Shown piece after piece: positions 2,706 to 50,901 of a stretch of 61,647 bases of DNA; the first letter of the stretch is position 1; every line of letters starts with the position of its first letter. The notes under the pieces were generated by a model that saw nothing but the letters and a program-made list of their open reading frames with translations, ran no database searches and had not been told where the DNA came from. Position numbers and translations under genes: made by a program. This DNA comes from Akkermansia muciniphila (GTDB taxonomy: Bacteria > Verrucomicrobiota > Verrucomicrobiia > Limisphaerales > UBA9464): positions 1 through 61,647 of the forward strand of contig CAMDGV010000020.1 of NCBI GenBank assembly GCA_945898055.1. Direction: 5' to 3'.

Positions 2706-4526
2706 TCAGTTACGTCTCATTGAGGTCACGGTAGTCACCGAGGGTCCGGTAGACTGTGCCTTGGTCGATTTCGTCTGCAGGATGGACATTAAATTCTGCA
2801 CCGTCCAGTACAGCGTTAGCCCAGCAGAATAGTTATAAAACAGGATACCAAAGAAAACCGGCATATACCGAAGCATTTTTTGTTGGGCTGGATCCATCTG
2901 CGGGGACGCGGGTGTCAAAGTGGATAACCACCAAGCTGTCCCCAAATAGAGGACGGGCATCAGATTGAGGGGCAATCCTACGCCAGTGATCCCGATCATG
3001 GGCAGAAAACCGAGCCCCGGAATCAGCGCTAAGGTATCGGGTCTAGAGAGATCGCTACACCAAAGAAAAGGGGAACCACGCAACTCGATCGAAGTGCGAA
3101 GCATAAAGAAAAAGCCAATGAAAACCGGAAATGTAAGAAGTAAAGGGAGGCAACCGGCCATGGGATTCACTTTATTTTCCTTCATGAACGCCATGGTCTT
3201 TTCGTTCATCTTTTGGGGGTCTTTTTTGTACTTCTCCTTGATCGCATTAATCTGCGGTTGGAGAGCTGACATCCGCTTCATGGACCGTGTGCTGGCATTG
3301 GTGAGCGGCCAAAAAGTGAGTTTGATCAAGACTGTAAGGACAACGATAGACCAACCATAAGAGGGGATTATGTCGTGCAGACCATTGAGCAAAAGCAGAA
3401 GCGCCTTGGCACAAAAGCCAGTAATGCCAGTGAAATCCATCACCAAATCGATCTGTTTGTCGCTGTTCTTCAATTGGCGATATTCCTTAGGACCGGCGTA
3501 GACAGTATGCGAACGGATCACCTTATCACCCGGCTTCAATTCCGATGGGCCATAAACAAAGGAAGTTTCGAAGGCCTGCGGCGCAGGATTGAGCGCTCCA
3601 TTCGTCGCCCACTCAACTGCGCTGGGAGCGGGTAAAATGATTTGGCGAACCCGAACCCCAAGCGGAAGTTCATTCGGTTGATCGATCATCGCAAAGAACT
3701 GATTATGGACGGCAGCCCAAACAATATTAGTGGACTGCGCGAGGAATTCCGTTCGAGGCGTACTGATCGTCGCGCAACCGAAAGTGGCGTTGGCGAACCA
3801 AGCAGCCGAAATTTGCTCTGCTTTATTTCCATCAAACCAGTACGCACCCTGAACTTCGGCCTTGTCCATCCGATCCATTGGCGTCGCCGACCCAATCGCA
3901 AAGTCATAGCCAGGCAATGCCAAAGTCTGCTGTCCACGATTTTCTAAAGTAACCGTGGTGTTAAAGAAATAGCCATTGGACAGCGAATAATCTTGGCTGA
4001 CGACTAGGCCATTCTCCATTTTTTTCTCGGCCCGCAAACCACCGGTTCGACGTTGCAAAGTAAACAAGCCATCACCGGTGAGCGGACCGACGCCGAGGGT
4101 CAAGGCCGGCGAAGATGCGAAGCGGTTCAAAGCAACCACCTCGCCCGTCAATTTCTCTTTTTCAATCCCGAGCTGTTCGGAGGCTGGATATTTTTTTAGT
4201 TCGATTAAGCGCACTCCGCCACCGTGAGAAGTGAGGCTGAGCTTGATGATGTCGTTCTCAAGGATTTCGGTCACCTCAGCGGTGTTGAAGGAAGGCCGAG
4301 GGACATTCGTCGTCGTCAGCATCGGCCGCAAGTTAGCCGTGGGTAGAGATTCCACGGAGCCTCCCGTACTTTTCACTCCCGAAGTCGCATCAGAACGAGG
4401 AAGACTCACTGAGTTAGTCGAGGTCAGCGGGCGAAGCGGTGTCGGCCAAATCCAGTCACCGACAAATTTAAGTCCCACCATGCCGGCCAAACATACGGCC
4501 ATGAAAGTAATGCTTTTGCGGTCCAT
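2706..4526 (-). CDS. yidC: Membrane protein insertase YidC
   Basis: A 606-residue YidC/Oxa1-type insertase, which folds and inserts inner-membrane proteins with or without SecYEG. An N-terminal membrane segment (residues about 7-25) is followed by a large periplasmic domain of about 330 residues, as in Gram-negative YidC. The conserved five-helix core starts near residue 370 with GWSIVVLTVLIKLTFWPLT. The cytoplasmic loop MKRMSALQPQINAIKEKYKKD is typical of the family. The ATG lies 2 nt after the yidD stop, so the two are almost certainly co-translated. The C-terminal tail is short and basic. Confidence 0.96.
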   Translation of the reverse strand: MDRKSITFMAVCLAGMVGLKFVGDWIWPTPLRPLTSTNSVSLPRSDATSGVKSTGGSVESLPTANLRPMLTTTNVPRPSFNTAEVTEILENDIIKLSLTSHGGGVRLIELKKYPASEQLGIEKEKLTGEVVALNRFASSPALTLGVGPLTGDGLFTLQRRTGGLRAEKKMENGLVVSQDYSLSNGYFFNTTVTLENRGQQTLALPGYDFAIGSATPMDRMDKAEVQGAYWFDGNKAEQISAAWFANATFGCATISTPRTEFLAQSTNIVWAAVHNQFFAMIDQPNELPLGVRVRQIILPAPSAVEWATNGALNPAPQAFETSFVYGPSELKPGDKVIRSHTVYAGPKEYRQLKNSDKQIDLVMDFTGITGFCAKALLLLLNGLHDIIPSYGWSIVVLTVLIKLTFWPLTNASTRSMKRMSALQPQINAIKEKYKKDPQKMNEKTMAFMKENKVNPMAGCLPLLLTFPVFIGFFFMLRTSIELRGSPFLWCSDLSRPDTLALIPGLGFLPMIGITGVGLPLNLMPVLYLGTAWWLSTLTPASPQMDPAQQKMLRYMPVFFGILFYNYSAGLTLYWTVQNLMSILQTKSTKAQSTGPSVTTVTSMRRN

Positions 4527-4528
4527 TT

Positions 4529-4798
4529 CTAAGGAGTTCGATTCAGTAAAGGTTTAACGACGGACGGCACCGGATCCTCGCCAGTTCCACCCCAAGGATG
4601 GCAACGGCACAGGCGCTGGGCGGCCAGCCTACTCCCCCGAAGGGCCCCATGGGACCTCACAGCTTCGAGGGCATAAGCGGAGCAACTAGGAATAAACCGA
4701 CATCCAGCATTCGGTCCCAACAGAATGTATTTAAGTGGCGAGATCCCACCGCGATAAAAACGAAGAATCCCAACTAAAATGGAAGCAACAGGGGTCAC
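4529..4798 (-). CDS. yidD: Membrane protein insertion efficiency factor YidD
   Basis: A small YidD protein with the family core [13 protein letters not shown], the cysteine-containing [15 protein letters not shown] segment and the [13 protein letters not shown] end. YidD helps YidC-dependent insertion at the inner membrane. The longest frame starts at 4819 (96 aa, 25-nt overlap with rnpA). I prefer the GTG at 4796-4798, because its last three bases overlap the rnpA stop as GTGA, a coupling pattern seen repeatedly in this window, and because the product (89 aa) then starts where YidD proteins usually do. Confidence 0.9.
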
Positions 4799-5163
4799 AC
4801 TGGATTCGGGTTCAACCAAATTTTGGCCCGATTCAACAGTCTGACAAAATCACGCTCGACATCAGCAAAGGTTACCTTGGAAATTGAAGGCCTCGCAACG
4901 AGGACAATCTCGACCGGCAGAGCTAATTCGTGCTGATGAAGACGAAACGCCTCTCGGATGAGTCTGCGAGCACGGGAACGATCGACCGAAGGCCCAACTT
5001 TTCGACTTGTAACAACGCCAACTCGAAGACGATCCGCGGCACGCCAATTCATTACCAGACACCCAGACACCTCGCGGCGACCGGTCTCGCGAAGCCTGCG
5101 GAAATCAGAGGACCGTTCGATCCTTAATGTCCGCGGGAGTCCAAATCGGACTGTCCCGCTCAT
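4795..5163 (-). CDS. rnpA: Ribonuclease P protein component
   Basis: A 122-residue basic protein. It has the RnpA signature around residues 45-75 ([28 protein letters not shown]), including the conserved RNR-like basic helix, here SRARRLIRE. It is the protein subunit of RNase P, which trims tRNA 5' leaders together with the RnpB RNA. It follows rpmH by 15 nt in the usual order, and its stop overlaps the start of yidD. Length is normal. Confidence 0.95.
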
Positions 5164-10707: not shown

Positions 10708-11286
10708 ATGTATCCCATAAGCCATTTCCATTTCTGTCCTCGCTGTGGCGCATCTCGTTCTGCTCCGAACGCGTCAAATTCTTTTGAGTGCCCGCACTGC
10801 CAATTTTGTTACTACTTCAATGCATCGGCCGGCGTGGCGGTCTTCATTGAGAATGCCTTAGGGCAAGTCTTACTCATCCGCCGGGCTAAAGATCCTGGAA
10901 TAAATCGTCTCGCGCCGCCCGGCGGGTTCATCGATATCGGTGAGCGCGCAGAAACGGCCTTGAGTCGAGAAATAGCCGAAGAAATAGGCATCCAAATCCA
11001 CTCAATTCACTTCCTTTGCAGTCAAACCAACGAATACACCTACGCAGGAGTCACCTATCCGGTTCTTGATTTATTTTTCATCGCGAAATCCGAGGCGAGC
11101 AAACTCACCCTGGCTCCTGAAGAAGTCAGGACCGCGGACTGGTACGCGCCAGAGGACGTCTGCACCGATGACCTCGCCTTTGCCTCGATGCAAGCCGCTT
11201 GGAAAGAGTTTCTGAATTGCCGCCTTAAATTCAATGAGAGCCTTGGGTTGCCCTCTGCCAACTCGGCGATAGGGTACGGCCGATGA
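10708..11286 (+). CDS. Nudix hydrolase with N-terminal zinc ribbon
   Basis: A 192-residue protein. Residues 1-35 hold a zinc ribbon (CPRCG and CPHC pairs), and residues about 40-165 a Nudix fold with the box GGFIDIGERAETALSREIAE around 71-93, including the REIAEEIG core. Such proteins cleave nucleoside-diphosphate-linked compounds. The stop overlaps the ATG of the next gene (ATGA at 11283-11286), so translation is coupled with the HAD-Nudix fusion. Together with folB downstream, the context suggests pterin triphosphate or nucleotide clean-up, but the zinc-ribbon type is also used for NADH or diadenosine substrates. Confidence 0.9.
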   Translation: MYPISHFHFCPRCGASRSAPNASNSFECPHCQFCYYFNASAGVAVFIENALGQVLLIRRAKDPGINRLAPPGGFIDIGERAETALSREIAEEIGIQIHSIHFLCSQTNEYTYAGVTYPVLDLFFIAKSEASKLTLAPEEVRTADWYAPEDVCTDDLAFASMQAAWKEFLNCRLKFNESLGLPSANSAIGYGR

Positions 11287-12332
11287 TTCGAAACGTGATC
11301 TTCGATTGGTCGGGCACTTTAGTAGATGACCTACCTGCGGTCTGGTTAGCTTCCAATCACGTTTTCCAAAAAGCCGGGCTCGAGCCAATGACCCTTGAGC
11401 GTTTCCGTGCCGAGTTTCGACTCCCTTTCAGCGGGTTTTATCAAGAATACCTGCCGCACATTCCCCTGCCCCAACTGGAACTGTGGTTCCATGAATGCTT
11501 CAGCACAGCCCAATCCTCCGTTAGCATCCTGCCTTACGCTGAAGAATTCCTTCACTTTTGCCGAAGCAAAAATCTGCGCACTTTTCTTCTCAGCGCCGTT
11601 CATCCCAAACACTTTCAGACCCAATGTGACGCACTCCGACTGCGCTCTTATTTCGACAAAACCTATCTGGGTATTGCCGATAAACGAAATCAGATCCAGA
11701 CAGTCCTCGAGGAGAACGGACTCAACCCAGAAGAAACTGTATTCATTGGTGATATGCAGCATGACATCGAAACCGCGCACCAAGGAGGAACCCAATCGGT
11801 GGCTGTGTTGACCGGTTATAATAGTCTAACTCAACTCCAATCCAGCAAGCCTGATCTCATCGTCGAGCACCTCGGCGAACTACAAAGGCATCTGGAGCAT
11901 TCCCAACTCAAGGTCCGCGCGGACCGCCCGCGCGCACGATATCCTATCCCCACGGTGGGCGCCTTAATCTTTGATGCTGAAAATCGCATGCTTTTGGTTC
12001 GCACCTCAAAGTGGTCCGATCTCTGGGGTATTCCTGGGGGCAAAATTGAATGGGGCGAAGACTCAGAGACAGCACTCCGTCGAGAACTTCTCGAGGAGAC
12101 CGGCTTGGAGGTTGAAGGGATCCGTTTTGTGTTGGTCCAAGATGCAATCAACCCGCCCGAATTCTATCGAGAAGCTCACTTCATCCTCTTGAATTACGTC
12201 TGCCAGTGTCGACAGGGCCAGCAGGTTCGACTCAACGATGAGGCACAAGAGTTCCGTTGGGTAACTCGCGAGGACTCGTTCCGTTTAGCTTTAAACACAC
12301 CCACAAAAGTTCTGCTTAAATCCCTGACCTAG
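11283..12332 (+). CDS. HAD phosphatase-Nudix hydrolase fusion
   Basis: A 349-residue two-domain protein. Residues 1-205 form a HAD-superfamily phosphatase of the phosphoglycolate phosphatase-like type, with motif I FDWSGTLVDD, motif II in LLSAV and motif IV FIGDMQHDIETA. Residues about 220-349 form a Nudix domain with the box GGKIEWGEDSETALRRELLE. The second Asp of the HAD motif I is replaced by Ser (DWS instead of DxD). It is translationally coupled to the Nudix gene before it and lies 4 nt before folB. A pyrophosphohydrolase plus a phosphatase next to folB fits removal of PPi and then Pi from dihydroneopterin triphosphate; that role is inferred. Confidence 0.9.
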   Translation: MIRNVIFDWSGTLVDDLPAVWLASNHVFQKAGLEPMTLERFRAEFRLPFSGFYQEYLPHIPLPQLELWFHECFSTAQSSVSILPYAEEFLHFCRSKNLRTFLLSAVHPKHFQTQCDALRLRSYFDKTYLGIADKRNQIQTVLEENGLNPEETVFIGDMQHDIETAHQGGTQSVAVLTGYNSLTQLQSSKPDLIVEHLGELQRHLEHSQLKVRADRPRARYPIPTVGALIFDAENRMLLVRTSKWSDLWGIPGGKIEWGEDSETALRRELLEETGLEVEGIRFVLVQDAINPPEFYREAHFILLNYVCQCRQGQQVRLNDEAQEFRWVTREDSFRLALNTPTKVLLKSLT

Positions 12333-12777: not shown

Positions 12778-13010
12778 CTTTGGTGCCTGTTGTCTCTACG
12801 CCTGTTCTTTGAAGTCACCGGACGTACGGTCTGGTTAAAATCAAACATTGTTGGAAGTGCAGGAATGCCGTGTGAATCGGCGACGGTTGCGCCACTGTAT
12901 CGAGTGACAAACCTCTCTAGTCTCAAAGACAACCACTGGATTAAATTCTGGGAAGGTGAGGGGTAAGGTTAGTAGCTCGGAGTCAGGATATTGCGCCGAC
13001 GATGCTCGTC
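12778..13010 (+). promoter_or_regulatory. Cobalamin (B12) riboswitch
   Basis: The hallmarks of a cobalamin riboswitch occur in order: GGTGCCT at about 12782, CTGGTTAAAA at 12831-12840, a GCCG-TGTGAAT-CGGC hairpin at 12867-12880, CGACGGTTGCGCCACTGTA at about 12881-12899, and the B12-box-like AGTCAGGATATTGCGCCGAC at 12981-13000. It lies on the plus strand upstream of the operon that starts at 13233 and is followed at once by a terminator hairpin. It should lower expression of the operon when cobalamin is plentiful. Confidence 0.93.
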
Positions 13011-13011
13011 T

Positions 13012-13036
13012 GCCTACGGCTTTGTCGTAGGCTTTT
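13012..13036 (+). terminator. Intrinsic terminator linked to the B12 riboswitch
   Basis: A 7-bp stem GCCTACG/CGTAGGC (13012-13018 with 13026-13032) and a 7-nt loop are followed directly by TTTT. It starts 2 nt after the riboswitch and about 200 nt before the first gene, as expected for a transcription-attenuating expression platform. A further 9-bp stem (13066-13074 with 13081-13089) without a T tract follows. Confidence 0.75.
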
Positions 13037-13232
13037 CGCCGCAAAGCGAAGGATGAGACCTGCATCGCCTGAGCCTGTTTGCTCGGGCGGATTCCTAGAT
13101 GAGCCAGCACACTCCTTCTGGGTCTCGCCATTGCCTTTTTCATTTCCCTTAGGAATCGAAAACGCATCGGAACAAGTCTCTCAGCAAACCTTCCCAATCC
13201 GTGAACAGGATTGGGCGTTCACAAAAGAGACT

Positions 13233-14246
13233 ATGTCCCTCAATCAGCTTCAAATATCCCGTCTATCTAGCCTCGGCTTCGCCACACTCCTCGCCGCCGC
13301 CAGTTATAGCGCCACACAAACACGCCTCGTGGCCCAGTACGCCACTTCGATCGTAGATTACTCTCCCGGTGGGGGATTTTCGCCGAAATACACCAACGCT
13401 GCTTCCGCTCTCGGACAACCCAGTCGAGTCACCGAGGGCCTCTTTGGTGGTCCAGTGGATCCCTTTGCACCTCCCTATACTCCTGAGCAACTGGTCAGTC
13501 TTGGTGCTGGAGGTTCACTGACCGTTCGATTCAGCACTCCTATTCTGAACTCCGAGCGCAACCCTTTTGGATTGGATTTTAGCGTCTTCGGCAGTGCCGG
13601 ATTTATGGTCACCAACGCCTTTGATCTGGAATTCAATTACATCGGTACCCCCGCCACCGATGGGACTCTTTTCAATCCCTCATCCGCGACTTCTCGAGTG
13701 AGTGTCAGTACCGACGGATCAACCTGGTACACACTGGATTCAAGCAAAACGCCCAAGGTGGACGATCGCTTTCCTACCGATGGCTCCGGTGATTTCACTC
13801 GCCCGATTAACCCAAGTCTTCTCTCAACTTCCCTCGGTGGAAAGACTCTAACTGACCTCCGGTTAGCTTACAGCGGGTCGGCTGGGGGCGCTGGATTTGA
13901 CCTGAGTTGGGCTCGCGATAGTTCAGGGAAAGCTGTCTCCCTTGACTCGGCTTCTTTTGTTCGTATCGAAGTGCTCTCAGGTCGAACTGAGATCGATGGA
14001 TTAGCTGCCGTGATCGCCCTTCCAGAACCGGGTGCGGTCATGATTGCTTTCCAGTTCAGCGAGAAACAGGTCGTTTTTGAGGGCAAAGGCGGTTGGCTTT
14101 TCATCTTAGAAGCGTCTTCCGATTTTAACACTTGGACATCTATCAATCAGCACCCCGCATACGTCGATGGCGAGGTCCGTTTATTTGATTTGAGGAAAGC
14201 GTATTTTCCTGCCCAATTCTACCGAGTTAAAGCGACTCGACTCTGA
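13233..14246 (+). CDS. Secreted surface protein under B12 riboswitch control
   Basis: A 337-residue protein with an N-terminal signal sequence (RLSSLGFATLLAAASYSATQ). Residues about 30-260 resemble a family of exported cell-surface proteins that often accompanies B12-regulated transport genes: YSPGGGFSPKYTNAASALG, then VSLGAGGSLTVRFSTPILN, then VSVSTDGSTWYTL. Residues about 270-337 form a C-terminal module (FILEASSDFNTWTSI ... AQFYRVKATRL) shared with the product at 14714. The start is ATG 13233 with an AGAGA ribosome site; the longer open frame from 13002 lies inside the riboswitch. It is the first gene of the riboswitch operon. A role in corrinoid capture is inference. Confidence 0.85.
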   Translation: MSLNQLQISRLSSLGFATLLAAASYSATQTRLVAQYATSIVDYSPGGGFSPKYTNAASALGQPSRVTEGLFGGPVDPFAPPYTPEQLVSLGAGGSLTVRFSTPILNSERNPFGLDFSVFGSAGFMVTNAFDLEFNYIGTPATDGTLFNPSSATSRVSVSTDGSTWYTLDSSKTPKVDDRFPTDGSGDFTRPINPSLLSTSLGGKTLTDLRLAYSGSAGGAGFDLSWARDSSGKAVSLDSASFVRIEVLSGRTEIDGLAAVIALPEPGAVMIAFQFSEKQVVFEGKGGWLFILEASSDFNTWTSINQHPAYVDGEVRLFDLRKAYFPAQFYRVKATRL

Positions 14247-14321
14247 TTCTAGGAACTCTTCCTCGAACGTCTGACCTCACCGAAAAGAATCTGTCACCCA
14301 TCGCAGTGCTAACCCAAAGCA

Positions 14322-14717
14322 ATGCCCGACACCCACCAGTCTAGCACCGGTCAATCCCTCCAATCCGGAGCGCCCCACTGCGGAATCTGTCCCCAATGTA
14401 ATGATATCAATGGGTGTCGATTGCTTGAGCTAGCTCACAGCTCAGATCCCTGCTGGTGTGGTGCCGTCGCTTCCGTAGAAAAACAGGAAGCTCACTCGTC
14501 CAACTTGCCCTCATGTCTCTGCTCCACCTGCCTCACTGATCGAAGAAAAGCGACGGGGTGGATGCCTCGCGCGACACCGGCCGAACTTTACACTGACCCA
14601 GATGGTCGCATCGTTTTTCGTGCGGCTTACCATCTTCGACGCGGTTACTGTTGCAACAACGGATGCCGACACTGTCCCTACAGCTCAACGCGTCAATCGA
14701 GAGATGGGGAGCCGTGA
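14322..14717 (+). CDS. Cysteine-rich protein: CWC domain plus DUF5522
   Basis: A 131-residue protein with 14 or so cysteines in two modules. Residues about 20-70 match the cysteine-rich CWC pattern (CGICPQC, then GCRLLEL, then DPCWCG, then SCLCSTCL). Residues about 85-125 match DUF5522 (YTDPDGRIVFRAAYHLRRG followed by YCCNNGCRHCPY). Both are small modules of unknown function that probably bind a metal or Fe-S cluster. No signal peptide is visible. It is the second gene of the B12-riboswitch operon, 75 nt after the first, and its TGA overlaps the GTG start of the next gene. Confidence 0.85.
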   Translation: MPDTHQSSTGQSLQSGAPHCGICPQCNDINGCRLLELAHSSDPCWCGAVASVEKQEAHSSNLPSCLCSTCLTDRRKATGWMPRATPAELYTDPDGRIVFRAAYHLRRGYCCNNGCRHCPYSSTRQSRDGEP

Positions 14718-15697
14718 ATTTCAGCCCTTTTATTTGCGCTTTCAGATTCGGTCTCCGATGGATGACCTTGCTCGAATTTCTTTGGGTCGGAGTCCGCGCC
14801 AATACGATTCCATTAAACGCCAACTCCGGTTGGAAGATCTTCGGTGACCCGCAACTCTTTCAATGGCTACCCGATCTTCAGACAGTCCAAGTAACTTGGG
14901 ATTCCTCGCGATCCAATAGCTTTCTCGCCTATCCCCTACCCCACGCCCTCACCTCAGCGGACTCCTTCGATTTTACTTTTGAGCTTCTTCTGGAAAGCCA
15001 TGCGGTGGGCCTCCGACCCGATCGGCCCTCGACCTTTCAGATTACGGTCGGGATGGTGCGCATCGGCGTGGTCACCGTCCCGAACTATGTCCGTGGATCC
15101 TTGCCTGGGCCAAAAGACACGGTGGAATGGGCTTGGTTTGGAGACTCCGACCCGATTTCCGCCTCCGTATCACCAGTGATTATTCCCTCCGACGGACGCC
15201 TCCCTTGGGGCTATGCGGACAGCTTCATCACCTTAGAAACAGGCATCCACTACCGTTTCAAACTCGCCTACTCAGCCCTCGATCGAACGGCTCGCATCAC
15301 CCTGCAATTGAATGGAACCAACGGTCCCGCTCTCCAGCCCGTCGTATTGCCTGCTAACTTCACCGACTTTCAGGTTGATAGCTTTGTCATCAGTAATTAT
15401 TCAGACCTAGGGCAACATCCACTCTACGGAGGTTCGGTACTCGCTACCGGAAAAGTCAACAACCTGACCCTCACCCTTCCGCCCAACCCGATAGAAAGTT
15501 TAGGCCTGCGAAATGGAGAAATCGTCTTCCAAGGGCAATCGGGGTGGCGGTTCACATTGGAAGCTTCCTCCGATCTGAAAGCTTGGATGATTGTTTCCGA
15601 GATCAACCCATCGATTGCCGGGGAATTCCGCTTGGCCGATTCGAGGGAAGCAGTCTTCGCCGTTCAATTTTATCGAGTCAAGGCGAGACGCCCATGA
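14714..15697 (+). CDS. Secreted beta-sandwich-like protein with FYRV-type C-terminal module
   Basis: A 327-residue protein starting at GTG 14714, which overlaps the previous stop as GTGA; the alternative upstream ATG at 14651 would overlap the previous gene by 67 nt. The N-terminus (ICAFRFGLRWMTLLEFLWVGVRAN) looks like a signal sequence. Residues about 55-250 look like an all-beta, lectin- or LamG-like region (ITVGMVRIGVVTV, HYRFKLAYSALDRTARITLQL), but I cannot assign a family. Residues about 260-327 are paralogous to the end of the 13233 product (FTLEASSDLKAWMIV ... VQFYRVKARRP). It is the third gene of the B12-riboswitch operon. Confidence 0.8.
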   Translation: MNFSPFICAFRFGLRWMTLLEFLWVGVRANTIPLNANSGWKIFGDPQLFQWLPDLQTVQVTWDSSRSNSFLAYPLPHALTSADSFDFTFELLLESHAVGLRPDRPSTFQITVGMVRIGVVTVPNYVRGSLPGPKDTVEWAWFGDSDPISASVSPVIIPSDGRLPWGYADSFITLETGIHYRFKLAYSALDRTARITLQLNGTNGPALQPVVLPANFTDFQVDSFVISNYSDLGQHPLYGGSVLATGKVNNLTLTLPPNPIESLGLRNGEIVFQGQSGWRFTLEASSDLKAWMIVSEINPSIAGEFRLADSREAVFAVQFYRVKARRP

Positions 15698-16476
15698 GTG
15701 AGCGGGCTTCATCACCTGAGTTGCGGGCAATCGATCCAAGGACTCCGAGCTGCGTCGCCTCTTTCGGTGGATTTACACTAATCGAATTGCTAGTGAGTGT
15801 CGCTCTGATCGCTTTGCTTGCCGGACTCCTGCTTCCGAGTTTGATTAAATCGAGTCAATTGGCCGACAGCACCCGATGTTTATCCCATCTTAGGCAGGTA
15901 GGACTCGCCAGCCAACTTTACTGGGATGACCACGGTGGAAGGGCCTTTTCGGAGCGATCTATCCGGACAAATAACGGCTGGACCTATTGGTTTGGTTGGT
16001 TGGCCAACGGTTCAGAAGGGCTGCGCAAATTCGACCCCACACTCGGTCCCCTTTGGCCTTACCTCCAGAATCATAAAATCGGCATCTGCCCCGCGTTAAA
16101 CCGTTCGGCAACCGACTTTAAATCCAAGGCTCAGGGAGCGGCCTATGGTTTCGGATACAACCTACTGGTGGGCACCCGAGGCGAAAGCGGGATCCGGATA
16201 TCAACCCTGCGGGCACCTTCGGATCTGGTCGTCTTTGCAGACTGCGCTCAAGTAAATGATTTCCAACCGCCCGCCACTCCAGACAAACCGATGCTCGAAG
16301 AGTTTTATTACTTTGATCTAACCACGCCGACGATTCATTTCCGACATCGTGAAAAGGCTCAATGCTGGTTTGCCGATGGTCACTTAGCGGGAGAGATACC
16401 TCGATCAAACTCACTTGATACGCGGTTACCTCTTCACATCTTGGGTTTGCTCCAAGAGAACCAAATCCGCCCCTAA
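15694..16476 (+). CDS. Type II secretion-type pseudopilin, H-X9-DG group
   Basis: A 260-residue pseudopilin. The prepilin signal is [20 protein letters not shown] around residues 24-43, with cleavage expected after Gly and a membrane helix behind it. The globular part ends with FRHREKAQCWFADGHLAGE, the H-X9-DG motif of pseudopilins common in Planctomycetes and Verrucomicrobia. ATG 15694 overlaps the previous stop (ATGA). It is the last gene of the B12-riboswitch operon; no pilus assembly genes are next to it, so it would have to use the machinery encoded at 44.9-50.9 kb. Confidence 0.88.
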   Translation: MSERASSPELRAIDPRTPSCVASFGGFTLIELLVSVALIALLAGLLLPSLIKSSQLADSTRCLSHLRQVGLASQLYWDDHGGRAFSERSIRTNNGWTYWFGWLANGSEGLRKFDPTLGPLWPYLQNHKIGICPALNRSATDFKSKAQGAAYGFGYNLLVGTRGESGIRISTLRAPSDLVVFADCAQVNDFQPPATPDKPMLEEFYYFDLTTPTIHFRHREKAQCWFADGHLAGEIPRSNSLDTRLPLHILGLLQENQIRP

Positions 16477-42507: not shown

Positions 42508-43308
42508 TTACTTCCAACTGTAAATATTATCCCGGTTGTTCGGATGATCTTGGTCCAAAGTGAAGTCAGCCTTCCCGTCGGGCCCCAAGGACATCACCAA
42601 AACATTGCCTGGGATGAAACGTGCCTGAGCCGGTTGACCGACGCGAATCAAAGGAAACGGGCTTAAAACGCGACTATCGTAATCAAGATCCATGATGGCA
42701 ACATAAGGATGTCCCCACGGATCACGATAAACCCCCAAGTCATCCATCCCATTGGGCTGCCGAGTCGGAACAATTTTGACGTTCAGATACACATTTCGTT
42801 TTGGATTCTGACTATTGTTGGCGTTGACGAGTTCTGACATTCCCACAGCCGCATCAGGCGCAGTTTGGCCGGTTAAAATAGCCATTATCTCTGAATTATT
42901 TGGGTTACGGCCCCCAGATTGAGGATCGTTCACCAATTGATAACCGACGGCCGCAACAACGGACGGCGTGGGCATCTGGTTCTTGGGGTCTGGGGTCTCG
43001 ACATTACCAAAAACCCAGTCAGGCGTGGCGACCGTAGGAAATTGCCCTTGGGCATAGGGAGGTTTTGCTGAATGAGCCTGCCGGGTCCGAGGCGTCGCGG
43101 GCAGGCGAGAATAGTCGGCATAATAGGCATTGATCGCCCCGACCATGGCGGTCACTTCTGTCCTTGATTTGGCGGTCTTGGCTTTCACCACCGCTCGGAC
43201 CACAGCAGGAACCAGCATGGAGGCCAGAATGCCGATGATGGCAATGACCACGAGGAGTTCGATGAGCGTGAAAGCACTCCGTCGACGGGTGACTAATCGG
43301 GTATTCAT
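42508..43308 (-). CDS. GspG-like major-type pseudopilin
   Basis: A 266-residue pseudopilin. Prepilin motif [29 protein letters not shown] near residues 11-40; the globular part has DDLGVYRDPWGHPYVAIMDLDYDSR and ends SLGPDGKADFTLDQDHPNNRDNIYSWK, the GspG arrangement in which a C-terminal loop binds calcium. The start ATG is at 43306-43308 and lies 20 nt after the upstream pseudopilin gene; the longer frame to 43347 overlaps that gene. Confidence 0.9.
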   Translation of the reverse strand: MNTRLVTRRRSAFTLIELLVVIAIIGILASMLVPAVVRAVVKAKTAKSRTEVTAMVGAINAYYADYSRLPATPRTRQAHSAKPPYAQGQFPTVATPDWVFGNVETPDPKNQMPTPSVVAAVGYQLVNDPQSGGRNPNNSEIMAILTGQTAPDAAVGMSELVNANNSQNPKRNVYLNVKIVPTRQPNGMDDLGVYRDPWGHPYVAIMDLDYDSRVLSPFPLIRVGQPAQARFIPGNVLVMSLGPDGKADFTLDQDHPNNRDNIYSWK

Positions 43309-43328
43309 GGGACTTCGAAAAATGGAAT

Positions 43329-44114
43329 TCAGTTGTTCTCTTTCCAATTGCCGATAATTTTAATTTGGTCGCGGCCGACAGGAAGTTCGGCCCATAGATC
43401 AAACGATCCGGCATTATTGGTTGGATTAGTAGAAACATAACGCCACGGATTGAGTCCCCGATTCGAAGGAATCGGGTGATCGTTGCGATTATTAGGCCAA
43501 GCGAAGCCACCACCTCGCTTACCGGAGGCATCGGTCGCAAAACCAACCACCAGCAGCTCCAGATCAACATAGCCTGGGTCCGACCGGTTGCGGAAGATCT
43601 CTGCGTACTGCGACTCCTTAAAATCTGAGATAAACAAACGATTGCGCTGTTGGTAAGTGCGGGCGTTCAAGATCCCGTCTCGCCCGAACCAAGTCTGCAA
43701 TCCAGAACTACCCACCCCGTCTGGTCCATCCCCATCGGCACGAGAGACAAAGTAGCCATCTGGACTCGTTGCATTGGTGATATAGACACCGGACAATTCG
43801 TAAAAAAGTGGATTCCGAGCCGGGATCGGAACTAAGCCATCGACAGTCGAGGAGATTCCATCCGGCGGATACACCCCAAACTTGACCTTATAAGCTTCGA
43901 TCAAAGTGACCAATTGCTGCAATTCAACACGAACCGTCGACTCTTTGAGTTTATTAGAGGCAATCGGAGCAAGGCCCACCACCAGACCAGCCAAAATACC
44001 AATGATTGAAATCACCACGAGAAGCTCTATGAGCGTAAAGCCCCCTAACCGTCGGCAAGAGGCGAACGAGGCAACTCGAGATTGACTTTGACAGAGCATT
44101 TTAGTTTGGCGCAA
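43329..44114 (-). CDS. GspG-like pseudopilin
   Basis: A 261-residue pseudopilin with [33 protein letters not shown] (residues about 24-56), then a GspG-like head with RVELQQLVTLIEAYKVKFGVYPPDG. Its C-terminal half is longer than in classical GspG and carries RGLNPWRYVSTNPTNNAGSFDLWAELP. ATG 44114 or 44099 are both possible (5 codons apart). It is the first structural gene after the BrnT/BrnA pair. Confidence 0.9.
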   Translation of the reverse strand: MRQTKMLCQSQSRVASFASCRRLGGFTLIELLVVISIIGILAGLVVGLAPIASNKLKESTVRVELQQLVTLIEAYKVKFGVYPPDGISSTVDGLVPIPARNPLFYELSGVYITNATSPDGYFVSRADGDGPDGVGSSGLQTWFGRDGILNARTYQQRNRLFISDFKESQYAEIFRNRSDPGYVDLELLVVGFATDASGKRGGGFAWPNNRNDHPIPSNRGLNPWRYVSTNPTNNAGSFDLWAELPVGRDQIKIIGNWKENN

Positions 44115-44864: not shown

Positions 44865-46217
44865 TTAGGCTTCGCCAGGTTCGCTCCCGAGGCTTTCCAT
44901 CAACTTGATCAGCGGTAGGAACATCGCAATAACGATACTTCCCACCACCACAGCTAAGAACACGATCATGATGGGTTCAAGAAGTGATGTCATTGCCGAA
45001 ACAGCATTATCAACCTCTTCGTCAAAATTATCTGAGATCTTTAGCAACATCTCTGGGAGAGCACCGGTCTGTTCACCGACATCCACCATCGAAATAACCA
45101 TCGGCGGAAAGACTCCCGACTTCTCGAGCGGTGCAGTAATAGTTTCACCCTCTTTGACCGAGTCATAAACATCTTGGACCGCCCTTGCGACCACCACATT
45201 ACCCGCGGTTTCTTTAACGATATTCAGAGCTTGAAGAATTGGGACACCCGACTGCACCAAGGTGCCTAGTGTACGAGTAAATCGAGCAATCGAGACCTTA
45301 CTAACAACGGGCCCGAGGACCGGCATATTAAGCTTAAATTTGTCAAAAACCCAGCGGCCTTTCTTGGTTTTGATGGTTAATTTGAAAGTAATGACGAAGG
45401 CAATAATTCCCCAAACGACCGGCCCTGGAAAGGGCCACCCCCCCAAGAACCATTCCGGAAAAATGACAGTATAATCTTTAAGAGTTTCCGAGATTTTAAG
45501 AACGAAGAGCGTAAATCCTGGCATACCGGCGTCGCCGCCGAGAAGGTCGGAGAAAATGGCTTTAAACTTAGGCACTACAACCACCATCAAAAGTCCGACA
45601 ATACCCACGGCGACCACCATAACGGCGACGGGATAAAACATTGCGGCCACCACCTTGCCCTTAATTTTCTCAGCCTTCTCCATGAATTCGGCGAGTCGCT
45701 TTAAGGCGACTTCAAGTACGCCGCCGAGTTCGCCGGCTTTCACCATATTAATGAAGAGACGGTTGAAAACTTTCGGATGCTGAGCTAAGCCCTCAGAGAA
45801 AGTGCTTCCGCCTTCAATGGAAAGAGCGAGATCACCCAAGATTTTTTTGAGAGTCAGATCCCTCTCCTGTTTTTCAAGGACCCTCAATCCGCGCAACAAG
45901 GGGAGTCCCGCTTCAACTAGGGTGGCTAACTGACGGGTAAAGGTGGTGAGGACTTTCGGTTTAACACCCCCACCAAAGCCAGGAATTCGGATATTAATCT
46001 GGCCGCCGCCTTTTTTCTTTTTGCCGCCAGCGGTGCCGGTGCCCGCCGATTTCCCCGCCAACTTAGGGCCCTTTGGCTTCTCATCCTCGGAGACTTTTGT
46101 TGGGAAAAAACCCATTTCTTTGAGGCGAGTGATAGCCTCAGATTGGCTTCCAACCTCGAGGACCCCCTTGGTTTCCTTGCCGCGGGAATCCATGGCAACG
46201 TAGTTAAATTTAGCCAT
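44865..46217 (-). CDS. pilC: PilC/GspF inner-membrane platform protein
   Basis: A 450-residue GspF-family protein. After the N-terminal FNYVAMDSRGKETKGVLEV domain comes a Gly/Lys-rich linker (residues about 45-85). Two GspF repeats follow (about 90-215 and 300-430): FTRQLATLVEAGLPLLRGL and FTRTLGTLVQSGVPILQALN. There are membrane helices near 195-215, 250-280 and 410-440. It is the platform that couples the ATPases to pilus or pseudopilus assembly. The spacing of 20 nt from the upstream PilB-type gene marks one operon. Confidence 0.93.
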   Translation of the reverse strand: MAKFNYVAMDSRGKETKGVLEVGSQSEAITRLKEMGFFPTKVSEDEKPKGPKLAGKSAGTGTAGGKKKKGGGQINIRIPGFGGGVKPKVLTTFTRQLATLVEAGLPLLRGLRVLEKQERDLTLKKILGDLALSIEGGSTFSEGLAQHPKVFNRLFINMVKAGELGGVLEVALKRLAEFMEKAEKIKGKVVAAMFYPVAVMVVAVGIVGLLMVVVVPKFKAIFSDLLGGDAGMPGFTLFVLKISETLKDYTVIFPEWFLGGWPFPGPVVWGIIAFVITFKLTIKTKKGRWVFDKFKLNMPVLGPVVSKVSIARFTRTLGTLVQSGVPILQALNIVKETAGNVVVARAVQDVYDSVKEGETITAPLEKSGVFPPMVISMVDVGEQTGALPEMLLKISDNFDEEVDNAVSAMTSLLEPIMIVFLAVVVGSIVIAMFLPLIKLMESLGSEPGEA

Positions 46218-46237
46218 AATGAGTTCTCGGAAACTAT

Positions 46238-47977
46238 TTAAGTATACTTCAAGACTTCTTCGACAGTGGTTTCTCCCCGGTAAATACTCTGGAGACCATC
46301 TTCACGCAAGGTTACCATCCCAAACTCGATCGCTTTTTGACGAATCACTACGGTGGGCGCGCGTTCGTTAATCAAATTACGCAGGGCATCATTGACCATC
46401 AAGAGTTCGTAAATACCTTTTCGACCACGATACCCAGTATCATTGCACTCCGGACATCCGCGGCCGTAGTAAAACATCTTGTCTCCGACGTCGTGGGCCG
46501 AAAGGTTCATGTTGTTCAATTGCGATTCACTGGGCTCAAACGGAGTTCGGCATTTCAGACAAACTCGACGCACTAATCGCTGAGCGAGCACGCCGAGAAG
46601 CGTCGAAGAAATCAGGAAGGGCTCAACCCCCATGTCCACCATTCGAGTCACGGCACCGGCGGCATCATTCGTGTGCAATGTTGAGAGCACGAGATGCCCA
46701 GTCAGTGAGGCTTGAATTGAAATCTGCGCGGTTTCCAAGTCCCGGATTTCTCCCACCATGATGATGTCCGGATCTTGACGTAGGAAGGCACGGAGCGCCT
46801 TGCCGAAAGTCATTCCAGCGGCATCGCTCACCTGAACCTGCATAATGCCCTCAATATCGAACTCAACCGGATCCTCAATGGTGAGCAATTTGGTATCGAT
46901 CAGATTGATCCGGCGCAAACAGGAATACAGGGTTGTGGTCTTTCCACATCCAGTAGGTCCAGTCACCGTAAAAATACCATTAGGTTGATTAATGGTCTCG
47001 ATAATGTACTCAAAGCTGTGCTTGGGAAGCCCGAGACTATCCAACTCTAGTTGCACAGCATTTCGATCAAGAACACGAAGCACGACCGATTCACCAAAGG
47101 CAGTCGGCAGGGTCGAAATACGAAGATCGATCTGCTTGCCATTGATCATCGATGTAATCCGCCCATCTTGAGGAAGACGACGTTCTGAGATGTTCAAGTT
47201 CGCCATGATTTTGAGACGCGAGGTCACCGGCATAGCGAGGTGCTTCGGCGGTGGCGCCATCTCATAGAGGGCTCCGTCAACACGATATCGAATCTTAAAT
47301 TCGTCTTCGAACGGTTCGAAATGAATATCTGACGCGCGGTCTTGTACCGCCTGCATCAGGACTAAGTTCACAAACTTGACTACCGGAATATCGTTAGCCA
47401 AGTCTTCCATATTGATGGAATTAATCTTAGCTGAAGCCTTCTCCTGAATTGCACCGGCACTTTTTTCCAACTCTTCCAGCATTTGAGTGTAACCCAATCC
47501 GCTTTGAGCCGGATAAAACTTCTCCAAATACTTAAGGATCTCTACCGGATCAACAACCACCACTTGCGGGGTGAACTTAAGAGAGAATCCAATCTCATCC
47601 ATGATTTGAGGATTGAGAGGATCCACCATCGCCACCTGAATCGTGTCACCATAGAGAGCAACAGGAATAATTTGATACATCCGAGCCGTTTCAGTCGGCA
47701 CCGCAGCCAAGGTCTCCGGGGTCAGTTGATCAGGATCAATGGAGGCAACCATTGTGCCGAGATGATCGGCAATAATCTGAAGAATTGAATCAAGATCCAG
47801 TAACCCGTAATCGAGGATTGCCTGAATCTCAGACTTGCCGCTTCGCTGAACCTCCTGACTAATTTCCTTGGATTGCAGATCTTCAAGAAAACCCCGTTCA
47901 CGGATCAGTGCTAGCAGTGGATAGGAGACAACTTCAGCCATAATATCGGGTGTTCGGATCGTAGTTGAGAGGAGCAA
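46238..47977 (-). CDS. PilB/GspE-type assembly ATPase (second copy)
   Basis: A 579-residue secretion ATPase. The N-terminal MshEN-like domain (1-150) is followed by the catalytic core with Walker [11 protein letters not shown] near residue 340, the Asp box [13 protein letters not shown], and the zinc-binding Cys pairs CLKC and CPEC (tetracysteine motif) near 460-510. Such hexamers power pilus extension or secretion. The ATG lies 2 nt after the pilT stop. It resembles the other ATPase at 49174 but is clearly diverged. Confidence 0.93.
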
Positions 47978-47979
47978 TA

Positions 47980-49089
47980 CTATCTGTTTTTACCGCCCGC
48001 TTGGGCCTCAGCGCGCAGGGCTTTCAGTTCAGAAAGCTTCTGCAAAATCGTGGTTGGATCCTGACTTTTTTGGATTACCTCCGCTTCCGCGATCATTCCT
48101 AATTGCCATTTATCGATGAGGAAACTGTCGAGTGTGACCATCCCATATTTGGCGCCTGTTTGGATATCAGATTGAATTCGAAAGGTCTTATTGTCGCGGA
48201 TCAGCGCCCCGACCGATGGGGTGTTAACCATGATTTCAAAAGCAGCTACCCGTCCAGGCTTGTCGACCCGGGGAAGAAGAATCTGTGAAATCACCGCCTG
48301 CAGAACGGTGGACAACTGAATACGAATCTGTTCCTGCTGATTTTGCGGGAAAGCATTCACGATACGATCAATCGTTTTCGCTGCGCCTGTCGTATGTAAG
48401 GTTCCAAAAACAAGATGCCCCGTTTCGGCAGCCGTGATAGCTGCTTCCATTGTCTCTAGATCACGCAATTCACCCACCAGAATGATATCTGGATCTTGCC
48501 GAAGAGCCCGTCGCAAAGCTTCCGCAAAGCTCGGGACATCGACGTTCACCTCGCGTTGGGTGACGACTGCCTTTTTGTGCTTATGATAGTACTCAATCGG
48601 ATCTTCGATGGTAATAATGTGGGCTTCATCTTTTTCCTCATTAAGAATATTCAGCAAGGAAGCCAAGGTGGTTGTCTTCCCAGACCCGGTCGGACCGACG
48701 ACCAGAACCAAACCTCGAGGCTTATTAATTAGATCAAGCACCGACATGGGAATCCCGATCTGTTCCATAGTTAACAGTTTCGAGGGAATCTGCCTTAAAA
48801 CGAGAGCAAAATTGCCTTTTTCCTTAAAAGCGCTGACCCGAAAACGGGCCATCTCACCGAAAGCAAAACCAAAATCAGCGCCCCCTTTTTCTCGGATCTG
48901 CTGAATATGTTCTTCTGAGCAAATCGAACGCATCAGTTCCTCGGCATCCTCCGGCCTCAAGACGGGCCCATCAAGGCGTTGAAGAATTCCATGGATACGG
49001 ATCACCGGAGGAATACCCACTCGAATGTGCAGATCAGCCCCTCCTTCGGCCACCATTAACTGCAACAAATCAGACATTTGATACGACAT
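47980..49089 (-). CDS. pilT: PilT-type retraction ATPase
   Basis: A 369-residue PilT protein with Walker [17 protein letters not shown] around residues 128-143, the Asp box [19 protein letters not shown], and the AIRE-like C-terminal region ([10 protein letters not shown] and [15 protein letters not shown]). It lacks the tetracysteine zinc site, as PilT proteins do. PilT depolymerises type IV pili; its presence argues that this locus makes a retractable fibre rather than only a type II secretion pseudopilus. Confidence 0.95.
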
Positions 49090-49173
49090 GACAGAAAAGA
49101 ATTTACTTTAGGTTTAATCGGCACTGAGAGGGAAACAGAGAGTTAGAAAAAGCTAGCAGGAACTAGACCTTTT

Positions 49174-50901
49174 CTAGTGCTCAGAAACGGTTGCACGAAT
49201 CACCTCGTCGGCGGTCGTAACACCCGCAACGACTTTACGGACGCCGTCTTCTCGAAGGGTACGCATACCCATTTCCCTCGCTTTCATACGCAAAATATTC
49301 GAAGGCACCTTATCATAAATCAGTTTCCGCGCTTCATCGTTAATAATGAAAATCTCGAAGATGCCAAAGCGCCCCTTACACCCAGTCTTATTGCACTCAG
49401 GACATCCCTTACCCTTGCGCGGCACCGCCGAGGCTACTTGCTCTGGGGTCAGGTTAAGTCCAACAATTTCCGACTCAGTTAAAGCGTAGGGACCAGCGCA
49501 CTTCTTGCAGACCTTACGAACCAACCGTTGAGCCATCAAACACCGAGCCGCCGAGGCCACAAGGAAGGGCTTCACTCCAATATCAATCAAACGAGCCACC
49601 GCCGCAGGCGCGTCGTTAGTGTGCAGCGTGGAGAACACCAAGTGCCCCGTCAGTGAGGCGTTGATCGCAATTGTCGCCGTTTCAAGGTCACGAATTTCCC
49701 CTAGCATGATCACGTTAGGCGATTGGCGGAGCATCGACCTCAACGCAGCAGCAAATGTAAATCCGATGTGCTCATGCACCTGGACCTGATTGATTCCAGC
49801 TAGCATGTACTCCACCGGGTCCTCAACCGTGATGATCTTGCGGTCGGGTCGATTGATATAATTAAGACAACTGTAAAGCGTCGTCGTCTTGCCGGAACCC
49901 GTCGGCCCGGTGACCAAAAGAATTCCGTCCGGCAAGGCAATCAGTCGTTCAAAGGTCGCCTGGTCATCCGATAAAAAACCTAGTTCAGCTAACCCCAATC
50001 GCAGGCCTGACTTGTCCAAAATACGCATGACAATCGATTCACCGTGCGAACAGGGAATCACATTGACACGAAGATCGATGGTCTTGCCGCCGACATTGGT
50101 CTGAATGCGGCCGTCTTGCGGAATCCGACGCTCAGCAATGCTCATCCCTGAAGCAATCTTCAGACGAGCAATCACGGGTGCTTGAAGGCGCTTCGGAATA
50201 TCTTTCATCTCCGTCATCATGCCGTCGATCCGGTATCGTAACCGAAAGCGTTTCGACATCGGTTCCAGATGAATATCGGAGGCTCGTAGTTTGAAGGCGT
50301 CGACAATGATCTGATTGACCAAGCGGATCACGGGTGCATCTGCATCGATTGCCTCAGTGTCCGATCCAACATCACCCTTGAGAGACTCGACTTCGACTTC
50401 ACCCTCAGTGATGTCTTGGATCATCTTGGCGATACTTGAGTCACCTCGCCCCGCCACCCCCCCGCCGCCTCCGCCGTAGTATTTATCCAGCGCCGCCTTC
50501 AGATCGGCCTCGCTGGTCACCCGATATTCAAGGGTTTTTCCCAAGGCGATCTGCAGGCCGTCAATAGCCTCAATGTCAGAAGGATCCGCTAAGGCAACAA
50601 TGACTGTCCCGTCCTGCTCGGCCACTGGGAACGCATTATATTTTCGTGCCACATGGCGTGGAACAGCACTGATAATCTCGTCGGAAACCTTGATTTCCGA
50701 GAGAGTCACCGGTTCCACCCCAAAGTAACTCGACTTGGCGATAACCACCATGCCGCCTTCGAGTCGCTGAGTCTTAACCAGAGTATCAACAATACCCTCG
50801 CCCGCAGACTCGGCTTCAGCCCGGACCTCGTCGATCAACTCACGGGTCAAGAGACCCAAGTCGATCATTGTATCGATCAGAAAATCGTCTTTGGCAGCCA
50901 C
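49174..50901 (-). CDS. pilB: PilB/GspE-type assembly ATPase (first copy)
   Basis: A 575-residue ATPase with an N-terminal MshEN-like region (LIDTMIDLGLLTRELIDEV, residues 1-150), then a Gly-rich spacer (YYGGGGGGVAGRGDSS). The core carries Walker [19 protein letters not shown], the Asp box [22 protein letters not shown] and the Cys pairs CKKC and CPEC. It is the first gene of the pilus operon. The residues before the MshEN domain look intact; ATG 50901 is the family start. Confidence 0.93.
   Translation of the reverse strand: MAAKDDFLIDTMIDLGLLTRELIDEVRAEAESAGEGIVDTLVKTQRLEGGMVVIAKSSYFGVEPVTLSEIKVSDEIISAVPRHVARKYNAFPVAEQDGTVIVALADPSDIEAIDGLQIALGKTLEYRVTSEADLKAALDKYYGGGGGGVAGRGDSSIAKMIQDITEGEVEVESLKGDVGSDTEAIDADAPVIRLVNQIIVDAFKLRASDIHLEPMSKRFRLRYRIDGMMTEMKDIPKRLQAPVIARLKIASGMSIAERRIPQDGRIQTNVGGKTIDLRVNVIPCSHGESIVMRILDKSGLRLGLAELGFLSDDQATFERLIALPDGILLVTGPTGSGKTTTLYSCLNYINRPDRKIITVEDPVEYMLAGINQVQVHEHIGFTFAAALRSMLRQSPNVIMLGEIRDLETATIAINASLTGHLVFSTLHTNDAPAAVARLIDIGVKPFLVASAARCLMAQRLVRKVCKKCAGPYALTESEIVGLNLTPEQVASAVPRKGKGCPECNKTGCKGRFGIFEIFIINDEARKLIYDKVPSNILRMKAREMGMRTLREDGVRKVVAGVTTADEVIRATVSEH

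Follow-up and report, generated by a model that had tools for sequence, protein, structure and literature searches.

A cobalamin riboswitch operon with a BtuH-type protein and a dedicated pseudopilin: probable corrinoid acquisition in the Limisphaerales

The window analysed here is a stretch of 61,647 nucleotides (positions 1 to 61,647 of contig CAMDGV010000020.1, assembly GCA_945898055.1), deposited as Akkermansia muciniphila and placed by GTDB in the family UBA9464 of the order Limisphaerales (Verrucomicrobiota). It contains a cobalamin riboswitch followed on the same (+) strand by four genes, P1 to P4, that probably serve the acquisition of corrinoids. The riboswitch aptamer lies at 12835–13014 (+) and matches the Rfam covariance model RF00174 with 55.1 bits (E = 5.6e-11; gathering score 31.5), the single such match in the whole source genome (4.63 Mb, 136 contigs, 95% completeness). 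An earlier reading made from the sequence alone had placed a well-formed B12 riboswitch at 12778–13010 and had named the Rfam cobalamin model as its check; the element is there, in a shorter span, and the score is significant. The genes downstream are P1 (13233–14246), P2 (14322–14717), P3 (14717–15697) and P4 (15694–16476). The stop and start codons of P2 and P3 overlap as GTGA and those of P3 and P4 as ATGA, and the close linkage described by the sequence-only reading, with a short gap and two overlaps, holds throughout 13233–16476. That reading had also seen no btuB, btuF, cobalamin-synthesis or B12-independent isozyme gene in the operon, and Pfam finds no btu, cob or isozyme domain in the four proteins; a role of the operon in cobalamin synthesis or as a B12-independent isozyme was rejected on this ground.

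Cobalamin riboswitches act by repression when B12 is present. Overlapping the end of the aptamer is a terminator-like element (13012–13036, +), consisting of a 9-bp hairpin at 13012–13032 (–14.5 kcal/mol, z –3.0) followed by just four U. The terminator scan of the window did not have this hairpin among its predictions, and a comparable element was found at only one of the 41 other family riboswitches, versus 21 of 820 shuffles of these stretches. Thus, a hairpin with UUUU does stand behind the riboswitch, as had been claimed, but a conserved terminator serving as the expression platform is unsupported.

The association of the riboswitch with these genes is a property of the whole family. At least one riboswitch was found in 46 of 49 sampled family genomes, with exactly one in 41 of these 46, and P1 is present in 48 of 50 family genomes, representing 9 of 9 genera. 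The riboswitch lies 219–394 bases upstream of P1 in 46 of the 48 P1-bearing genomes (within a limit of 800 bases). There are two exceptions: in G002 P1 is at a contig edge, and G034 was outside the riboswitch sample, although a B12-box-like stretch can be seen by eye upstream of its P1. Co-occurrence among relatives, which the sequence-only reading had offered as a test of its proposal, is therefore well established for the riboswitch and P1. P3 comes after P1 in all 47 fetched family loci, some of which are truncated by a contig end. In 42 of the 47, P4 is encoded downstream on the same strand, and in three others (L036, L040, L064) its place falls past the contig end. P2 was detected by tblastn in 39 of the 47 loci; the other eight have no DUF5522-like motif. 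In some loci, P1 and P3 are fused into one protein (L069, L070 and L075 in the family; L304, L326, L330 and L349 as well). No flanking gene cluster recurs in a comparable share of the family loci, and we therefore take the riboswitch and the four genes to be the unit.

What might P1 do? It is a secreted protein with a core (about residues 34–266) and a C-terminal module (about residues 273–336), and neither P1 nor P3 of the window matches any Pfam or NCBIfam family at E ≤ 1. The sole significant PDB chain for the P1 profiles was the BtuG1 lipoprotein of Bacteroides thetaiotaomicron (8blw_B; E = 4.2e-4 and 3.1e-5), where the match falls in the C-terminal part and rests on two short stretches. 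AlphaFold models the P1 core (about residues 1–230 of the mature chain) with pLDDT values of 89–98, as means of ten-residue blocks, and the C-terminal module poorly. In a Foldseek search with this model, 8blw and 7biz (BtuH2) alone reached E ≤ 0.001, and VIA-align gave Z scores of 14.0 for 8blw and 13.5 for 7biz (3.5 Å, 151 residues), with the next row at 9.3; identity to the two structures is 27–28% over 151–155 aligned residues. Mean column identity of the P1 core is 50% (alignment of 30). The C-terminal extension of BtuG1, of about 250 residues, is described as homologous to the B12-binding BtuH2 (PMC10404256), which is described as binding B12 through the C-terminal domain represented by 7biz, with Tyr510, Trp511, Trp577, His476, Asn399 and Gln333 in contact with the ligand (PMC8941943). 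P1 is thus homologous to the BtuH domain by sequence profile and predicted fold, and a protein without a Pfam or NCBIfam match gains a likely, though predicted, role in B12 binding.

P1 resembles BtuH and the BtuG1 H-domain (7biz, 8blw) in its predicted fold, its core identity, its secretion and its riboswitch-linked locus. The Bacteroides proteins, however, are reported to be lipoproteins, encoded mostly in btuB-containing loci (PMC8941943), whereas P1 ends in a PEP-CTERM-like tail or in the shared module discussed below, and its operon contains no btuB, btuF, btuC or btuD but does contain a pseudopilin. The BtuJ/DUF4465 jellyrolls, which include Coraliomargarita D5EK51, are likewise secreted B12-binders, but neither P1 nor P3 matches DUF4465 (PF14717; Pfam, E ≤ 1).

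P3 is a secreted protein with a predicted L-type-lectin-fold domain and a C-terminal module. Its AlphaFold model (pLDDT 94.6) aligns with legume lectins at Z scores of about 15–16 over model residues 1–232, and a PDB sequence search with P3 gave nothing useful; mean column identity is 48% (alignment of 29). P2 is a small Cys-rich protein with Cys_rich_CWC (2.2e-5) and DUF5522 (3.2e-16) matches in Pfam. A similar CWC-DUF5522 gene is found directly after a riboswitch-btuB pair in L341. The module common to P1 and P3, which the sequence-only reading had made a hallmark of the two secreted proteins, is real: used as a query against its own genome, P1 also matches 15500–15691, at the end of P3, with 45% identity (E = 1e-12), and within the window P1 and P3 alone carry it. 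It is not a defining feature of the system, however. Among non-fused family P1 proteins, only those of the window, its sister L032, L060 and L061 have the module, the rest having PEP-CTERM-like ends by eye, and its use as a diagnostic was rejected for this reason. The pattern hints that the module could be an alternative surface-sorting or anchoring signal. The P1 tail at 14041–14243 is itself a copy of the P3-type module, as it is in L032 and, in another genus, in L060 and L061.

P4 has a prepilin N-terminal motif (N_methyl PF07963, 6.2e-5; TIGR02532, 2.3e-4), and by eye is of the H-x9-DG type. It fails the GspG equivalog model, with a TIGR01710 score of 25.5 against a cut-off of 88.85. It is also the most conserved of P1, P3 and P4, with a mean column identity of 61% (alignment of 28). 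A P4 profile separates it clearly from other prepilin-type proteins in the window (6e-121, next protein 5e-16), and its orthologues form one family, with 103 copies in 100 of 146 order genomes (E ≤ 1e-45); the same 146 genomes were searched for BtuB and for the riboswitch. Co-location was counted with 150 listed riboswitches, from 124 of the 126 positive genomes: 81 of the 103 P4 copies are within 8 kb downstream of a listed riboswitch, on the same strand, at a median of 2.0 kb. The pseudopilin that had been claimed for the operon is therefore well supported as a dedicated one, since P4 is a single orthologous family tied to the riboswitch. P4 resembles the pseudopilins of type II secretion systems and type IV pili in its prepilin N-terminus and pilin-like N-terminal stretch, but differs from them in lying outside a gsp or pil cluster, in being riboswitch-linked and in having its own long, conserved C-terminal domain. 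Prepilin-type genes are plentiful (139 loose first-look candidates in the source genome), which would suit an accidental linkage between riboswitch and operon, or a function of P1–P4 in some unrelated part of envelope biology. With the riboswitch before P1 in 46 of 48 family genomes, P1 in every genus and most P4 copies behind a listed riboswitch, such an explanation is very improbable.

Candidate machinery for P4 is encoded elsewhere in the window, at 44865–50901 (–), where Pfam identifies a T2SSF protein, two MshEN-T2SSE ATPases and one T2SSE ATPase without MshEN, the last of which looks PilT-like by eye. Two further proteins with N_methyl prepilin motifs are encoded beside it (42508–44114, –); they match the P4 profile weakly (2.1e-11 and 1.1e-6). 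It is plausible that this machinery would act as the engine of a P4 fibre.

Does the operon extend beyond the family? A class sample of 384 genomes yielded P1 in 48 (E ≤ 0.001; E ≤ 1e-40 in 32 of these) and the riboswitch in 226. These searches scored part of the first-look candidates in each genome (at most eight for BtuB and 19 for P4 and, in the class, at most seven for P1 and five for FecCD; for the riboswitch, 6–16 in class and order under stricter filters), so weak members may be missed. A set of 54 riboswitch loci, one per genome, was compiled from order genomes of the class sample that lie outside the family (52 of the 53 in which a riboswitch was found) and from two further class genomes. 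(Genomes with two riboswitches contribute one locus; that of G235 is its nrdB one, and its other riboswitch precedes BtuB.) P1 and/or P3 are encoded in 44 of the 54 loci, with P1 (alone, with P3 or fused to it) in 25, and 42 of the 54 have a same-strand P4-like gene, 34 of these at E = 2.3e-74 or better and eight being diverged copies (7e-23 to 3e-31). Of the other ten loci, eight have a BtuB-like TonB receptor, one has nrdB and one runs into a contig end. Scans of four of these receptors gave the B12 receptor model TIGR01779 as the best match for three of them and as the fourth-best for L309, all below the model cut-off. This suggests, from gene content, that the operon stands where a BtuB-like receptor is the riboswitch-controlled gene in other members of the order.

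In the Gram-negative bacteria that have been studied, B12 is taken up via BtuB, in Bacteroides with the aid of helper capture proteins. Of the 146 order genomes, 100 have P4 only, 19 have strong BtuB only, none has both and 27 have neither (Fisher p = 1.3e-11, uncorrected for phylogeny). Here, a genome counted as having strong BtuB if its match reached 326 bits; matches of 237 bits or less were taken as other TonB receptors, except for a second, 228-bit fragment in G484, which was kept with its genome. Both types can be found within one family, f88 having P4 in G435 and BtuB in G459. Of the 150 listed riboswitches, 81 have P4 and 18 have BtuB downstream (within 8 kb and 3 kb, respectively), which leaves 51 with neither. 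These 51 include nrd, diverged P1/P4 and contig-end cases, most of them not inspected. Among the 27 genomes lacking both P4 and BtuB, a riboswitch is present in 15. In the source genome, there is no BtuB in the operon and no match to the BtuB profile at E ≤ 1e-40 among the eight of 13 candidates scored, although the genome may encode a diverged receptor.

For the inner membrane, FecCD permeases of the BtuC type (E ≤ 1e-20) were found in 99 of the 384 class genomes; G279 alone is listed among the order genomes. None of the ten family genomes in the class sample reaches E = 1e-20, and the 49 family genomes have no strong FecCD/BtuC, only partial matches of 20–46 bits (the best being 46), which were rejected as BtuC and read instead as related permeases. 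The source genome has one weak, partial FecCD match of 34 bits and none at E ≤ 1e-20. Riboswitches are common in an order in which a single genome of the class sample, G279, has a strong FecCD permease. The locus resembles BtuBFCD systems in being a riboswitch-controlled B12 locus and in the presence of a BtuB-like receptor in the riboswitch slot of related genomes, but differs in the lack of a BtuB at E ≤ 1e-40 in the source genome and in the weak, partial FecCD matches of the family. These bacteria probably do use B12, since B12-binding domains are encoded in 49 of 49 family genomes, and a MetH-sized frame is present in the source genome.

Taken together, these features make it probable that the operon is a B12-repressed corrinoid-acquisition operon that stands in BtuB's regulatory slot and has a dedicated pseudopilin. 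The corrinoid capture proposed by the sequence-only reading gains independent support from the BtuH profile match and predicted fold of P1, from the place of the operon behind the riboswitch in 46 of 49 family genomes sampled, and from its standing in the BtuB slot. From what is known of the riboswitch, B12 would repress the operon and scarcity would turn its expression on; the genomes themselves reveal the linkage. By homology, P1 would capture extracellular cobamides as a surface protein of the BtuH type, and P3 may be its lectin-fold partner, helping with capture or with attachment to the envelope or to glycan, and perhaps also a cobamide binder. P4 would be built into the fibre of a type II secretion system or type IV pilus and, across the outer membrane, would move P1 and P3, hold them or present them, whether by export, display or retraction, and P2 may be a family-specific accessory, possibly a handler of metal or corrinoid. 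The parts are of known kinds, namely a riboswitch, a BtuH-type binder and a prepilin-type protein, but the searches, made in open-licence literature, turned up no such combination lacking BtuB. The presence, across much of the order, of a helper-type protein, no strong BtuB and a pilus-type subunit in a riboswitch operon suggests a different way of catching vitamin B12 in a large group of Verrucomicrobiota. It makes one ask how an essential cofactor reaches these bacteria when no BtuB or BtuC is recognisable, and gives a testable job to one of the many prepilin-type proteins of Verrucomicrobiota.

In which direction would the pseudopilin act? P4 might be a secretion aid only, with a type II machine exporting P1 and P3 and B12 entering through an unregulated TonB receptor. 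TonB Plug receptors are encoded in 48 of 49 family genomes, and outside the order P1-like and P4-like genes are found beside a TonB receptor in L355; on the other hand, strong BtuB never accompanies P4 in the order sample, and the source genome has no BtuB match at the threshold given above. We consider this outward arrangement a serious contender, with a chance somewhat short of even. Alternatively, the operon could encode a TonB-independent cobamide importer, in which a retractable P4 pseudopilus carries B12-bound P1 and/or P3 inwards through a secretin, having taken over from BtuB under the riboswitch in most of the order. Such an importer would fit the P4 or P4-like gene in 42 of the 44 order loci with P1, P3 or both, the mutual exclusion of P4 and strong BtuB, and the PilT-like ATPase in the window. 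However, no precedent was found in the literature searched and the uptake of small molecules by pili is unproven, which makes this version improbable.

Several observations weigh against a corrinoid-acquisition operon with a dedicated pseudopilin. The profile of P1 did not report 7biz itself, and no residue-level alignment of P1 with 7biz was obtained, leaving the BtuH2 contact residues unmapped on P1. The tie to the riboswitch is not absolute, as 22 of the 103 P4 copies have no listed riboswitch inside 8 kb. Seven genomes with P4 gave no riboswitch match anywhere, and two of these seven (L345, L346) still hold a P1–P3 fusion and P4 together. Conversely, two of the 47 family loci (L060, L061) carry P1 and P3 with no P4 nearby. 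The closest genes for secretion or pilus parts lie 26 kb off, among the minority of such parts that were searched for. TonB Plug receptors, nearly universal in the family, number four in the source genome; any such receptor could import B12, and at most the eight best TonB candidates per genome were scored against the BtuB profile. Finally, 19 of those 44 order loci with P1, P3 or both encode P3 but lack P1, so a BtuH-like protein is not obligatory, and P3 would be the binder there. These 19 loci, together with the legume-lectin-like fold of P3, might instead point to an adhesion response, in which B12-starved cells attach to B12 producers or to particles via P3 carried on the pseudopilus. The BtuH-like nature of P1 speaks against this, and a shared lectin fold is by itself no proof of sugar binding; we regard adhesion as unlikely and continue to favour corrinoid acquisition.

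Outside the order, relatives of these genes are found in other arrangements. P1-like, P4-like and CWC genes are clustered with the TonB receptor in L355 and are found near a DUF4465 protein in L354; a riboswitch was not located in either. DUF4465 proteins, one from Coraliomargarita included, are reported to bind B12 (PMC13398666). In L353, the riboswitch is followed by DUF4465, a TonB receptor and a P1-like gene, and in L352 by genes for a PEP-CTERM protein, a P1-like protein and a P4-like protein. PEP-CTERM surface proteins are further neighbours of P1-like and P4-like genes. In NCBIfam, the P1-like protein of L352 is weakly similar (3.5e-7, under the cut-off) to the LIC_13355 lipoprotein family; Pfam and PDB searches with the longer diverged P1-like proteins gave nothing useful. 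The DUF4465 proteins are encoded at 4213–5037 (–) in L354, 5561–6385 in L358 and 1057–2133 in L353, with a PEP-CTERM tail match in L354 and L358. Their genes lie near P1-like, P4-like or TonB receptor genes, L358 having just a weak P1-profile match in the vicinity.

Upstream of the riboswitch in the window, a single gene at 11283–12332 encodes a HAD-type phosphatase fused to a NUDIX domain and lies immediately upstream of folB. Five family genomes have a second riboswitch that is not before P1, four of them strong and one of 31.8 bits; the stronger ones are at L161–L164 (G033, G026, G031 and G025). In G405, a second riboswitch has a lone P3 paralogue downstream (L362, 2939–4171, –). Isozyme-type riboswitch targets in the clade stand apart from the P1–P4 operon, with nrdB or nrdAB behind second riboswitches by eye. 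The two examined of the four strong family cases (L162, L164) have an nrdB-like gene downstream by eye, and a second, stronger riboswitch likewise stands before nrdB or nrdAB-type ribonucleotide reductase genes, named by eye, in L359, L360 and L363. Both L162 (1700–2818) and L164 (375–1493) also contain a gene that looks CbiX-like by eye, divergent from the riboswitch-nrdB unit.

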